In this document: positions 28,647 to 37,090 of the stretch, one piece after another | How the letters are laid out: every line of letters starts with the position of its first letter | Position numbering within the stretch: position 1 is the first letter of the stretch | NCBI GenBank assembly: GCA_029210645.1 | Contig: JARGFT010000004.1 | Location: forward strand, 1-49,041 | Source of the DNA: Anaerosomatales bacterium | Lineage (GTDB): Bacteria > Actinomycetota > Coriobacteriia > Anaerosomatales > SLCP01 | Length of the DNA stretch: 49,041 nucleotides | Direction of reading: 5' to 3' | Position numbers and translations under genes: made by a program | The notes under the pieces: generated by a model | Database searches by the model: none | What the model saw: only the letters and a program-made list of their open reading frames with translations | What the model was told of the DNA's origin: nothing

Positions 28647-29122
28647 CTACGGAGTCTGTGCCGCACCTGATGAATCGAGTCTGGGTGGCGCTGTACCGGT
28701 GAGTTCCTGCGCGTCAACGATCTTCCACGCCCCGGTCAAGAACTCCAAGTTGAACAGCATCGCCGTCGGCCACTCGGGAGAGTCCGTGTCGTCCTGCCAC
28801 TTCACGACGACATCGGCGGTCGCGCTCGTCTGAGCGCTTACGTAGGGGGGCTCCCACTCGGGGATGGGAGGTCCAGCTGTGGCGGTCGGGGGACGGACGC
28901 CGTCGCGTCCTCAGCGAGCGCTTCAGCGAGATCCTCCGATGCGAAGACTTCGGCGTAAGCGGAAGCATCGGACGACCGATCGTACCTCAGTTCGAGGGCA
29001 TCCTGCACCGCTTGCGCGGGCGGGTCGAGCTCCGCTGTACGCGAAACGCAGCCTCCGACAGGCGTCGCCAGTAACGCGATCGCACATGCGGCCAGCGCCA
29101 GGGTGTAGCGCGTGCGACTCAT
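28647..29122 (-). pseudogene. Lipoprotein at end of cytochrome operon, frameshifted
   Basis: ATG at 29122 with GGAGGT six bases ahead; it overlaps the upstream gene (ATGA). The start encodes a lipoprotein signal (TLALAACAIALLATPVGGC) and DPPAQAVQDALELRYDRSSDASAYAEVFASEDLAEALAEDATA. The frame then runs out near 28833. The natural continuation lies in another frame: GPPIPEWEPPYVSAQTSATADVVVKWQDD, PEWPTAMLFNLEFLTGAWKIVDAQE, ending at 28647. One missing base near 28880-28900, by a run of five C, accounts for it. Related to the gene at 26397. Recent pseudogene or sequence error; the rest of the protein is well preserved. Confidence 0.65.
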
Positions 29123-29496
29123 CTTCCCACCTCCGCAGCGCCGACCTCGATCGTGCGCTTGACGCTGCGCCACAGGATCAAGCCCGCTATCACCGCCGAG
29201 AAGAACAGCACGTGCTTGACTGCCAGAGCCGCAAGCAGGCCTTTCTCGACGGCCGGTATGAACTCGTGCGTACGAAAGAAGATCACGCGCGGGATGCCGC
29301 CGATCACGATCCAGGCCACGGCACCCCACGCGAACTTCGTGAGCGTGGCATAGAGGCCCGCGAGCGTGGTGTAGGCCTGCGGACCCTCTCGGCGCGCCTG
29401 CCTGCCCAGCGCGTACATGATCACCGCGCTGCCGAGCAACACCGCCGAGGCGAGGTCATGGAAGTAGTTGTTCATGATGATGAGGATGTCGGTCAA
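29119..29496 (-). CDS. Four-helix membrane protein in cytochrome maturation cluster
   Basis: A 125-residue protein with four predicted membrane helices (HDLASAVLLGSAVIMYALG, YATLTKFAWGAVAWIVIGGIPRVIFF, LLAALAVKHVLFFSAVIAGLILW). A TTG start at 29496 or the ATG at 29475 are both possible. Several histidines (NYFHDLA, AVKHVLFF) face the membrane ends and could bind heme; this is inference. It follows CcsA-1 by 10 bases and overlaps the lipoprotein start, so it is part of the operon. I do not recognise the family. Confidence 0.7.
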   Translation of the reverse strand: MTDILIIMNNYFHDLASAVLLGSAVIMYALGRQARREGPQAYTTLAGLYATLTKFAWGAVAWIVIGGIPRVIFFRTHEFIPAVEKGLLAALAVKHVLFFSAVIAGLILWRSVKRTIEVGAAEVGR

Positions 29497-29506
29497 TTGC
29501 CACGTC

Positions 29507-34891: not shown

Positions 34892-34893
34892 GC

Positions 34894-35697
34894 TCAGATC
34901 CCTCCAGCAGTGATCATCGGTATCTCGAAGTAGTGGTAGGTGCCCGCGTAGAGGCTCCAGATCCAGTATGTGAGCACTATCAACGGCAGGAGCATCACCG
35001 TCGCGGCCGCAAGGCGCTTCTCCCGCCAGCCCCAGAACTGCCGGCCGTGTATCACGAGGCCCAAAGCGACCCAGGACGCCGCGGCGAGCGACTCCACGAC
35101 CTCCCAACGGAACCAATCCGAGAACAGCTGGAAGCTGTAGAACGCACCGACCGACGTCATCGCCGTGAAAGCAGCAAACCCCAGGCCTAACCGCCCTAGC
35201 TGTGACGCACTCGAGGCGATCGATGCATCGGCTATCCCCGCCAACGCAACGATCGCGACCGCCACCGCCGCCAGTAGCTGCGCATAGGCGAGCCACGCCA
35301 GCAGTACGTGCAGGTCCACCCAGAGGCTCCGCTCGGAGATCGTGAGCGGGTAGAGCGCGGTCTCGAAGAAGAGTCCGTAGACGAGCGTGACACAGGCGAA
35401 AAGCGTCAGCAGCGCCGCCGGTGCGGAGTGCGCTCGGTCTGAGCCGGGACGGACCATGAACCACGCTGTGATGATCAGCGCGAGCGCCGAGGCGATCGCG
35501 TTCTCGTGCGTGCCGAAGATCGGCGGATGGGCGGTGACCACCCAACGCACTGCCGCAACGGCGCACAACAAACCGGCGCTTGCGGCAAGACTCCAGCGTG
35601 CTGCCGTGACTCGGTCTATCCACGCTGCGATGGCCGCTGTGAACACGGTAGGAATCGCTGCGACATACCCAGCTATGACAAGCGTCTCAGCGTTCAC
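34894..35697 (-). CDS. CcsA-2, heme handling protein with degenerate WWD motif
   Basis: A 267-residue CcsA/CcmC-like protein with eight predicted membrane helices. The WWD region reads FYSFQLFSDWFRWEVVESLAAASW, aligning with [23 protein letters not shown] in CcsA-1 but with W to F twice and D to E. The flanking histidines are kept (LWVDLHVLLAWL and GLVIHGRQFWGW). Heme binding is thus plausible but altered. GTG start at 35697 with AGGGACG; overlaps ResB-2 by 11 bp and ends two bases before the SBP fusion gene. Confidence 0.82.
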   Translation of the reverse strand: MNAETLVIAGYVAAIPTVFTAAIAAWIDRVTAARWSLAASAGLLCAVAAVRWVVTAHPPIFGTHENAIASALALIITAWFMVRPGSDRAHSAPAALLTLFACVTLVYGLFFETALYPLTISERSLWVDLHVLLAWLAYAQLLAAVAVAIVALAGIADASIASSASQLGRLGLGFAAFTAMTSVGAFYSFQLFSDWFRWEVVESLAAASWVALGLVIHGRQFWGWREKRLAAATVMLLPLIVLTYWIWSLYAGTYHYFEIPMITAGGI

Positions 35698-37090
35698 GAT
35701 CGTCCCTGAGTTTGTGTCTGACGCGGCCCGCGTACTCGCCGGTGTCACCGTAGAGCTCCCTGTTCACGCGCACGTCGGGGCCACCGTCTGCGGATGCGAG
35801 CACCAGCACTTCGATACGCGGAAACAGTAATCGCAACGCGGCGAACCCTGCGACAAGGGCGAACGAGATGAGCACCGCAAGCGCCCAAGGTGTTCGCACC
35901 ATGCGAAACACGCCGTAGTACGGCATGCCACGGATCACGATCGCGTCGTTCCCGAGATCGACGGTGGACCCCACGGGCATCACGGTCGGCTCGAGTACCC
36001 TCCGCATCTCCCCGTTCGCAAGCACGCGTGATGCTGCGATCTCAACGTAGGGGTTCGAACGGTTGAAGGATTGGATGGTCGGAGCGCCCTCATTGTCGAC
36101 GTAGTCTCCGAAGACCCTCACGTCCAACCGGTAGGTGCGGGCCGCGGTCCCCGTGCCCAGCTGTGGTGAATCGAAGGTGTCCGCCGTCCCCGACGGGAAC
36201 GTGTTGGTGCGGTACACCCGCTCTTGGGACTCACCTTGCGGGGGTCTGAACTCAACGTCGAGGGAGTAGCCGAAGTCCTCGATCGCTACCCACGTAGTCG
36301 GATCGACGAGGAGGGGATTCCCGACCGACATCTGCCGCTGGCCGTCACCCTCAGACATGAGGGCTTCCAGTCGCGTGAACAGCAGCATGTCTTTGAAGAA
36401 CTCCACGTCGATGCGCTCAACTGAAAGCGGAGGCAGGGGGTTGCCGCCAAGCCTCGCGTAGACATCGCCCGAATCGGGATCGACGAACTGCTGTTCTTGG
36501 CCGAGGAAGGTCTCGCCTTCGGTGAGCGCGAACTTGACGATGGTCGGACCGCCATCAGCAAGGTAGAGAGTCATCGACACGACCAGGCCGACGAAGGCGA
36601 GATGCCAAGCCGAGCTGCACAGCGGTGCCCAGCGGTTCCGTACCCCCCAGACGAAGTCAGGCGCGCGCACGACTCGGCGAAATCCCAGCCGCTTCAGCCT
36701 TGCCGCCCAGACCTCGGCGTGCTCATCGGTGAGTTCGTTGCCGGCCGAATCAGTAGGTCTGGAGTTGACGGTAGGTCCGCTTCGAGCGCGCCGTACATTG
36801 CGCCCGACCCTGGGGACGATACAGCCCACCGTGCTGATCACGAGCAGCGCGTAGAGCACCTGAAAGAACGGCTCGCCCAGCACGATCGCACGGATCTGTG
36901 CCGACGGCAGTCCGTACAACTCGAACGGTACCACCCAGACCACGAGTAGCAGAAGCCACGCGGTCATCACTGCGGTGGCCAACCGACGAGAAGCGAGAAT
37001 CCCGGGCACAGCGGAAAGCGGTCCCCGGGTTCTCGGTGAAGTCGATCTCTCGTCGCGCTGGGGGTTCAGACCGTCTCGTTTCTCGCTCAC
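35687..37090 (-). CDS. ResB-2, second ResB-like maturation protein
   Basis: A 467-residue protein with ResB topology: membrane segments ATAVMTAWLLLLVVWVV, PFFQVLYALLVISTVGCIVPRVGRNVRRA and SSAWHLAFVGLVVSMTLYLA, a large extracytoplasmic domain, and a last helix ALAVLISFALVAGFAALRLLFPR. It diverges much from ResB-1. The histidine in SSAWHLAF replaces the one in VVLHASIL. GTG at 37090 shares one base with the cytochrome stop, so translation is coupled to the giant cytochrome. Partner of CcsA-2. Confidence 0.82.
   Translation of the reverse strand: MSEKRDGLNPQRDERSTSPRTRGPLSAVPGILASRRLATAVMTAWLLLLVVWVVPFELYGLPSAQIRAIVLGEPFFQVLYALLVISTVGCIVPRVGRNVRRARSGPTVNSRPTDSAGNELTDEHAEVWAARLKRLGFRRVVRAPDFVWGVRNRWAPLCSSAWHLAFVGLVVSMTLYLADGGPTIVKFALTEGETFLGQEQQFVDPDSGDVYARLGGNPLPPLSVERIDVEFFKDMLLFTRLEALMSEGDGQRQMSVGNPLLVDPTTWVAIEDFGYSLDVEFRPPQGESQERVYRTNTFPSGTADTFDSPQLGTGTAARTYRLDVRVFGDYVDNEGAPTIQSFNRSNPYVEIAASRVLANGEMRRVLEPTVMPVGSTVDLGNDAIVIRGMPYYGVFRMVRTPWALAVLISFALVAGFAALRLLFPRIEVLVLASADGGPDVRVNRELYGDTGEYAGRVRHKLRDDRER

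Follow-up and report, generated by a model that had tools for sequence, protein, structure and literature searches.

The WWD domain is the signature of a family of haem-handling proteins, in which it is believed to place the haem so that attachment is stereospecific. In the System II protein CcsBA of Helicobacter hepaticus, haem moves from the site of the transmembrane histidines (TM-His) to an outer site made up of the WWD domain and the P-His ligands (PMC6299221; see also PMC10663686). Alanine at W828, W833, K842 or E843 abolishes function, whereas mutants of W839 and D840 retain less than 25% of it and those of W837 and G834 more than 50%; W828C crosslinks haem, and W828 and W837 are placed near the 4-vinyl (PMC6299221). 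Wolinella succinogenes has System II paralogs, NrfI and CcsA1, with restricted clients (PMC6976685), and its CcsA1 and CcsA2 carry a WWXD motif and lose their activity when that motif is mutated (PMC6299221). Here we analyse a stretch of 49,041 nucleotides (the window) from an Anaerosomatales bacterium, part of a contig of 133,897 bases (C41) in a genome of 1.98 Mb, in which two ResB/CcsA pairs follow a giant multihaem cytochrome. One pair, ResB2/CcsA2, is canonical. The other, ResB1/CcsA1 (not to be confused with the Wolinella CcsA1), is a variant that tracks a C-terminal domain of the cytochrome and not its haem count.

Both pairs were found on the minus strand downstream of the cytochrome, as an earlier note on this DNA had proposed. 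ResB1 and ResB2 match Pfam ResB with E-values of 2.2e-11 (43.7 bits, above the cut-off) and 1.4e-36, respectively. Against Pfam Cytochrom_C_asm, CcsA2 gives 3.6e-36 and CcsA1 3.9e-4 (20.6 bits, under the curated cut-off of 29.9); the 33 bits of CcsA1 against TIGR03144 are likewise under the curated cut-off. The structure model of CcsA1 matches CcsBA (7s9y; Foldseek E 4.4e-5, TM 0.79), and in the tree the protein is nested among CcsAs. When residues are numbered as in H. hepaticus CcsBA by alignment, the WWD segment of CcsA1, YSFQLFSDWFRWEVVESL, carries W828Y, W833F, W837F, D840E and W845L and has lost a Pro, with W839 kept. The Trp-rich WWD motif (W828, W833, W837, W839, D840) is absent from CcsA1, these positions reading Y, F, F, W and E. 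The earlier note had assigned the canonical WWD to one CcsA, which is CcsA2, and had read two W-to-F changes and a D-to-E change in the other; these changes are confirmed in CcsA1, and W828Y, W845L and the loss of Pro, missed there, come in addition.

All four haem-ligand histidines are present in both pairs of the window. The equivalents of P-His1 (H761), TM-His2 (H858) and P-His2 (H897) are kept in every variant CcsA1 complete at those positions, and TM-His1 is kept in 15/15 ResB1 proteins that reach it. Given that the histidines are kept and W828 and W833 replaced, we conclude that the variant keeps the export route and both ligand pairs while altering the vinyl side of the pocket.

When 84,980 genomes were scanned with a profile, 16 relatives were found, and relatives occur in Actinomycetota, Spirochaetota, Pseudomonadota, Nitrospirota, Bacillota, Myxococcota and one deltaproteobacterium (at least six phyla). 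The variant is rare: in the order of the betaproteobacterial match, it was found in 1 of 399 genomes. CcsAs were sorted by a separate motif (PLxISE) into 19 variants and 47 canonical proteins. Y828, F/H/Q833 and W839 occur in 19/19 variants, whereas W stands at both 828 and 833 in 47/47 canonical proteins; W845 is lost in every variant and E843 usually kept. The distant variants retain W837 and D840, whereas in the giant-linked actinobacterial subclade W837 is often F/Y and D840 mostly E. Hence, the changes at these two positions are later ones, made within that subclade. The variant CcsAs are monophyletic (100/100). They belong to a wider clade (100/96) together with the cassette's CcsA2 and the canonical CcsAs of most other variant genomes, from which the CcsAs of the 19-haem modules of the order are excluded; the exception is two Pseudomonadota loci, whose canonical neighbour falls elsewhere. 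Given that the variant and its canonical partners form a supported clade across phyla, the cassette is an old two-pair unit, and a recent local duplication is ruled out by the tree.

The window holds the C-terminal 3983 amino acids (aa) of the cytochrome, with 150 of 154 Cys within CXXCH. The frame continues to an ATG near contig position 51719, across a run of N just beyond 49041 (L191 about 1043-1260, contig C41) that splits the gene, and no CXXCH was found in this N-terminal part beyond the window. The tail domain at its C-terminus is common to the cytochromes that adjoin variant pairs, while other module cytochromes lack it in that form. Among 398 genomes of the class, the tail profile matches eight and CcsA1 is present in eight. 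Seven have both (G000, G005, G049, G083, G111, G121, G129), G099 has only the tail and G137 only CcsA1 (Fisher 2e-13 for the class and 6e-8 for the order alone, values that overstate the strength because they ignore the shared ancestry of the genomes). The contig of G137 starts inside CcsA1. G099, considered as a counterexample with a giant cytochrome and no CcsA1, was withdrawn, as its contig breaks off just past the tail, within a ResB1-type gene. These cytochromes supplied part of the tail profile, so matches in them are expected; the informative part is its absence from the 390 other genomes. Co-occurrence with one client type, as expected of a client-specific lyase, is thus seen in the class. 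Outside the class the association is weaker, with the tail found by profile in 5/11 variant genomes.

The earlier note had suggested that a second pair may be needed for so many haems. In the order, the cytochromes of the CcsA1 cassette have 4695 aa with 61 CXXCH (G005), 5097 aa with 75 (G049) and 3144 aa with 48 (G129). However, single canonical pairs stand behind cytochromes of 33 (G103), 33 (G010), 44 (G091) and 48 (G081) CXXCH, and of 19 haems, in the same order, and the neighbours of the variant pair in Spirochaetia are cytochromes of 10 and 11 haems. Since cytochromes of 33-48 haems make do with one pair and those of 10-11 haems have the variant, haem number was rejected as the driver. 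The same note held that its proposal would fall if the second pair occurred without large cytochromes. Such occurrences were found for the variant clade as a whole and not for the actinobacterial subclade, in which a large cytochrome precedes every locus whose sequence extends far enough. In the variant genomes G398-402 and G406, no paired-CXXCH frame above 1000 aa was found, the profile used being short and not exhaustive for cytochromes. The loci L127 and L128 carry tandem modules, that is, two cytochromes of 17-19 haems in one stretch, each with its own ResB-CcsA pair.

An atypical client site of the CXXCK or CX15CH type was not found in the cytochrome, which has 75 CXXCH; CXXCK was not counted as such, and all but four Cys lie in CXXCH. 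A single C-x15-CH was rejected as an atypical haem motif, since it coincides in part with an ordinary CXXCH and other tails lack its first Cys. A Cys pair outside CXXCH near the C-terminus (window 37093-37180 and the tails of L115, L117, L121, L125, L127 and L128) occurs in all compared module-adjoining cytochromes of the order, often with a His 1-3 residues after it. As an odd haem site it was likewise rejected, because the next His is missing in 4/17 tails and the pair is also found in cytochromes of single-pair modules.

We propose, with a probability of about 45%, that ResB1/CcsA1 is a client-specific haem exporter and synthase for the cytochrome tail, working within a two-synthase System II assembly line. 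ResB2/CcsA2 would export haem and attach it to the many ordinary CXXCH sites. ResB1/CcsA1 would also export haem to its outer site, where the rebuilt WWD pocket (Y828 and F833; here also F837 and L845; W839 kept) would hold it differently near the 4-vinyl side. This pair would most likely serve as the synthase for the haem sites of the tail domain, and would recognise that domain rather than haem number or an odd Cys motif. Several points weigh against the proposal. W828 and W833, essential as Ala mutants in H. hepaticus, are replaced, and synthase activity is not assured, the mutant data lacking Tyr and Phe. The haem sites of the tail are ordinary CXXCH, which do not obviously call for a special synthase. 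At the threshold applied, the tail is missing from six variant genomes (G399-402, G405, G406), the tail of the two Spirochaetia cytochromes beside the variant is diverged by eye, and shared ancestry tempers the Fisher values. Finally, all variant genomes in which the CcsAs were classified have a canonical one as well, which leaves independent action of the variant unproved.

The main rival makes ResB1/CcsA1 a haem donor and not a synthase: the pair would export haem, hold it on P-His1/P-His2 and pass it to CcsA2/ResB2, or store it beside the translocating cytochrome. Such a role would suit the replacement of W828 and W833, needed for synthase function in H. hepaticus, in 19/19 variants that keep all haem-ligand histidines. 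It would also suit the common clade and usual co-encoding of variant and canonical partner, and no genome was found in which the variant is the sole CcsA-family protein. A mere carrier, however, would need neither W839 nor E843, of which the first is always and the second usually kept, and at L087, L088, L092 and L094 the variant pair has no adjoining canonical pair. We know of no precedent for haem transfer between two CcsA proteins. On balance we regard the donor role as rather unlikely. We would favour attachment in a changed setting, for the tail, over the mere handing on of haem; a role in delivery instead of ligation had also been raised in the earlier note. It is more doubtful still that the variant is a matter of dosage, a diverged second System II pair that adds capacity for a very large cytochrome without serving any special site or client. 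The cassette does stand behind the 61- and 75-haem cytochromes of G005 and G049, and in several genomes of the order two or more canonical pairs occur, each beside its own cytochrome; but the variant clade is old and no recent copy, Y828 and F/H/Q833 being fixed in it, and both the 44- and 48-haem cytochromes with one pair and the 10-11-haem ones with the variant speak against a need for capacity.

The neighbouring gene raises a further possibility, to which we give little credence. It encodes a radical S-adenosylmethionine (SAM) protein scoring 387.6 bits to BchE (TIGR02026) against 132.6 for the next family, and its orthologs beside variant pairs in four other phyla score in the same BchE-like way. 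The protein might alter the tetrapyrrole, and the modified haem might then be exported and attached by the variant pair, whose pocket is reshaped; radical SAM protein, variant ResB/CcsA and TM125 would then form a pathway that makes, exports and attaches to the tail a c-type haem not yet described. A radical SAM match is present in 10/11 variant genomes and in or near 8/12 variant loci. However, about 30 genomes of the order, most of which lack the variant, also have a protein 67-75% identical to that of the window, so a tie of the radical SAM gene to the variant alone is not shown; the score also lies below the equivalog cut-off (481.35), and haem chemistry is invisible in sequence. A link of the radical SAM gene to System II loci is likely, and our search found no literature joining ResB, CcsA and radical SAM. 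The poorest account of all, and one we consider very improbable, is that of a decaying paralog without function: although CcsA1 falls under the Pfam cut-off and sits on a longer branch than CcsA2, the frames are open in all variant copies, the histidines and signature residues are conserved, and gene order is kept in at least six phyla. A single clade over several phyla, with Y828, F/H/Q833 and W839 fixed, is by these signs constrained and not decaying.

On the minus strand, the genes are ordered giant cytochrome, ResB1, CcsA1, SBP_bac_5 protein, TM162, ResB2, CcsA2, TM125 and a frameshifted lipoprotein gene, and the radical SAM gene converges on this cassette from the plus strand (Table 1). 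The cytochrome stop TAG (37092-37090) overlaps the GTG of ResB1 by 1 base pair (bp), CcsA1 starts at a GTG (35697) with an 11-bp overlap with ResB1, a 2-bp gap separates CcsA1 from the SBP_bac_5 gene, and 4-bp overlaps join SBP_bac_5/TM162 and TM162/ResB2 (both ATGA) and ResB2/CcsA2. Given these junctions, coupled translation from the cytochrome through CcsA2 is plausible. The overlaps of one to eleven bases described in the earlier note are thus borne out, but the two pairs are not adjacent, with the SBP_bac_5 gene and TM162 between them.

Table 1. Features of the cassette and its neighbour (window positions)
Feature	Position	Strand	Remarks
Giant multihaem cytochrome, C-terminal 3983 aa, 75 CXXCH	37090..49041	-	Pfam Paired_CXXCH_1 and MtrC/MtrF domain
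Tail domain of cytochrome (C..CHR.DVYG ... C..CHGG ... G.(I/V)HG(S/T) ... C ... C)	37093..37572	-	17 tails aligned
ResB1, partner of variant CcsA	35687..37090	-	TM-His1 kept
CcsA1, variant CcsA	34894..35697	-	P-His1, P-His2, TM-His2 kept
Variant WWD segment of CcsA1, YSFQLFSDWFRWEVVESL	35086..35139	-	
SBP_bac_5 protein, 886 aa, domain at the C-terminus; separates the two pairs	32231..34891	-	
TM162, 162-aa single-TM protein, weak ARC6-like IMS match	31746..32234	-	
ResB2, canonical pair	30367..31749	-	TM-His1 kept
CcsA2, canonical CcsA	29507..30370	-	
Canonical WWD segment of CcsA2	29705..29758	-	
TM125, four-helix membrane protein	29119..29496	-	
Lipoprotein-like gene, frameshifted near 28880	28647..29122	-	
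BchE-like B12-binding radical SAM protein, convergent neighbour	27149..28636	+	

The cassette order recurs in other genomes with homologous proteins (24-65% identical), so the arrangement is not due to chance. Seven further genomes of the order have a CcsA1 ortholog, with E-values no weaker than 3e-22 (canonical CcsAs at 2e-19 and weaker), and wherever these have enough sequence the order cytochrome-ResB1-CcsA1-SBP-(TM162)-ResB2-CcsA2-TM125 is kept. In the genome of the window, ResB1 and ResB2 are the only ResB matches apart from a weak one within CcmF, and a System I set (CcmE, CcmF, CcmB and a CcmC-like protein) lies on contig C1. Given that the genome's only ResB genes sit here and System I lies elsewhere, the two-pair System II line looks dedicated; the earlier note had described it as such, and the conservation of the cassette behind giant cytochromes in the order agrees with this.

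TM125 travels with the cassette across phyla; it has four predicted helices and invariant N9, N10, H13, D14, R70, K94 and H95, of which H13 and H95 are a possible bis-His haem b site. Its fold gave no significant match in the PDB. TM162 is common in ResB/CcsA modules of the order. The SBP_bac_5 protein, whose N-terminal part of ~440 aa has no family match, is split into two genes in G049 and G111 (L045, L046); its presence puts a protein of peptide-binding type among genes for cytochrome assembly. The frameshift in the lipoprotein gene lies near a C run at ~28880, where a paralog (26397-26960) shows the expected continuation, and may be a sequencing error or real. Two further proteins of the genome of the window (G000) have unusual Trp segments: a Cytochrom_C_asm protein with WQGESWWWSGK and no WWD Asp (L052 about 8300-9600, G000 contig C33), and a CcmC-like protein with WGRWWVWEP, in which Glu replaces the WWD Asp (L051:12631-13368, G000 contig C1).

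A natural clade that spans several phyla, lacks two essential Trp and keeps all haem ligands sets haem export and binding apart from positioning by Trp, and is therefore a natural test of the role of the WWD domain. It also suggests that an assembly enzyme of its own can accompany the C-terminal domain of a cytochrome rather than a given haem count, which bears on the making of very large multihaem cytochromes.

Among described systems, the variant shares with CcsB-CcsA (ResB-ResC), such as H. hepaticus CcsBA, the pairing of ResB and CcsA, the fold, the two TM-His, the two P-His and W839, but differs in W828Y, W833F/H/Q and the loss of W845, and here two pairs follow one cytochrome. The NrfI (CXXCK) and CcsA1 (CX15CH) proteins of W. 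succinogenes are likewise paralogous, client-restricted System II lyases beside another System II lyase; the client here, in contrast, has ordinary CXXCH sites. Dedicated lyases encoded for a multihaem client are also known in Escherichia coli (NrfEFG) and Shewanella (SirEFG), yet these System I-type proteins belong to the CcmF/CcmH/CcmI family and serve atypical motifs, unlike the ResB/CcsA proteins of this locus. In the single ResB-CcsA-TM162-TM125 modules of the order, a cytochrome of ~19 haems likewise precedes a System II pair of its own together with TM162 and TM125, but there is one canonical pair, the CcsAs belong to other clades and the cytochrome tail is another one. The radical SAM neighbour aligns over nearly its whole length with BchE, the anaerobic Mg-protoporphyrin monomethyl ester cyclase, from which it differs in its link to cytochrome c biogenesis genes and its score under the equivalog cut-off. 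Taken together, the arrangement is real and conserved and, as far as the searched literature shows, partly new: it is known in kind, as a dedicated lyase, and new in its motif, client and spread.

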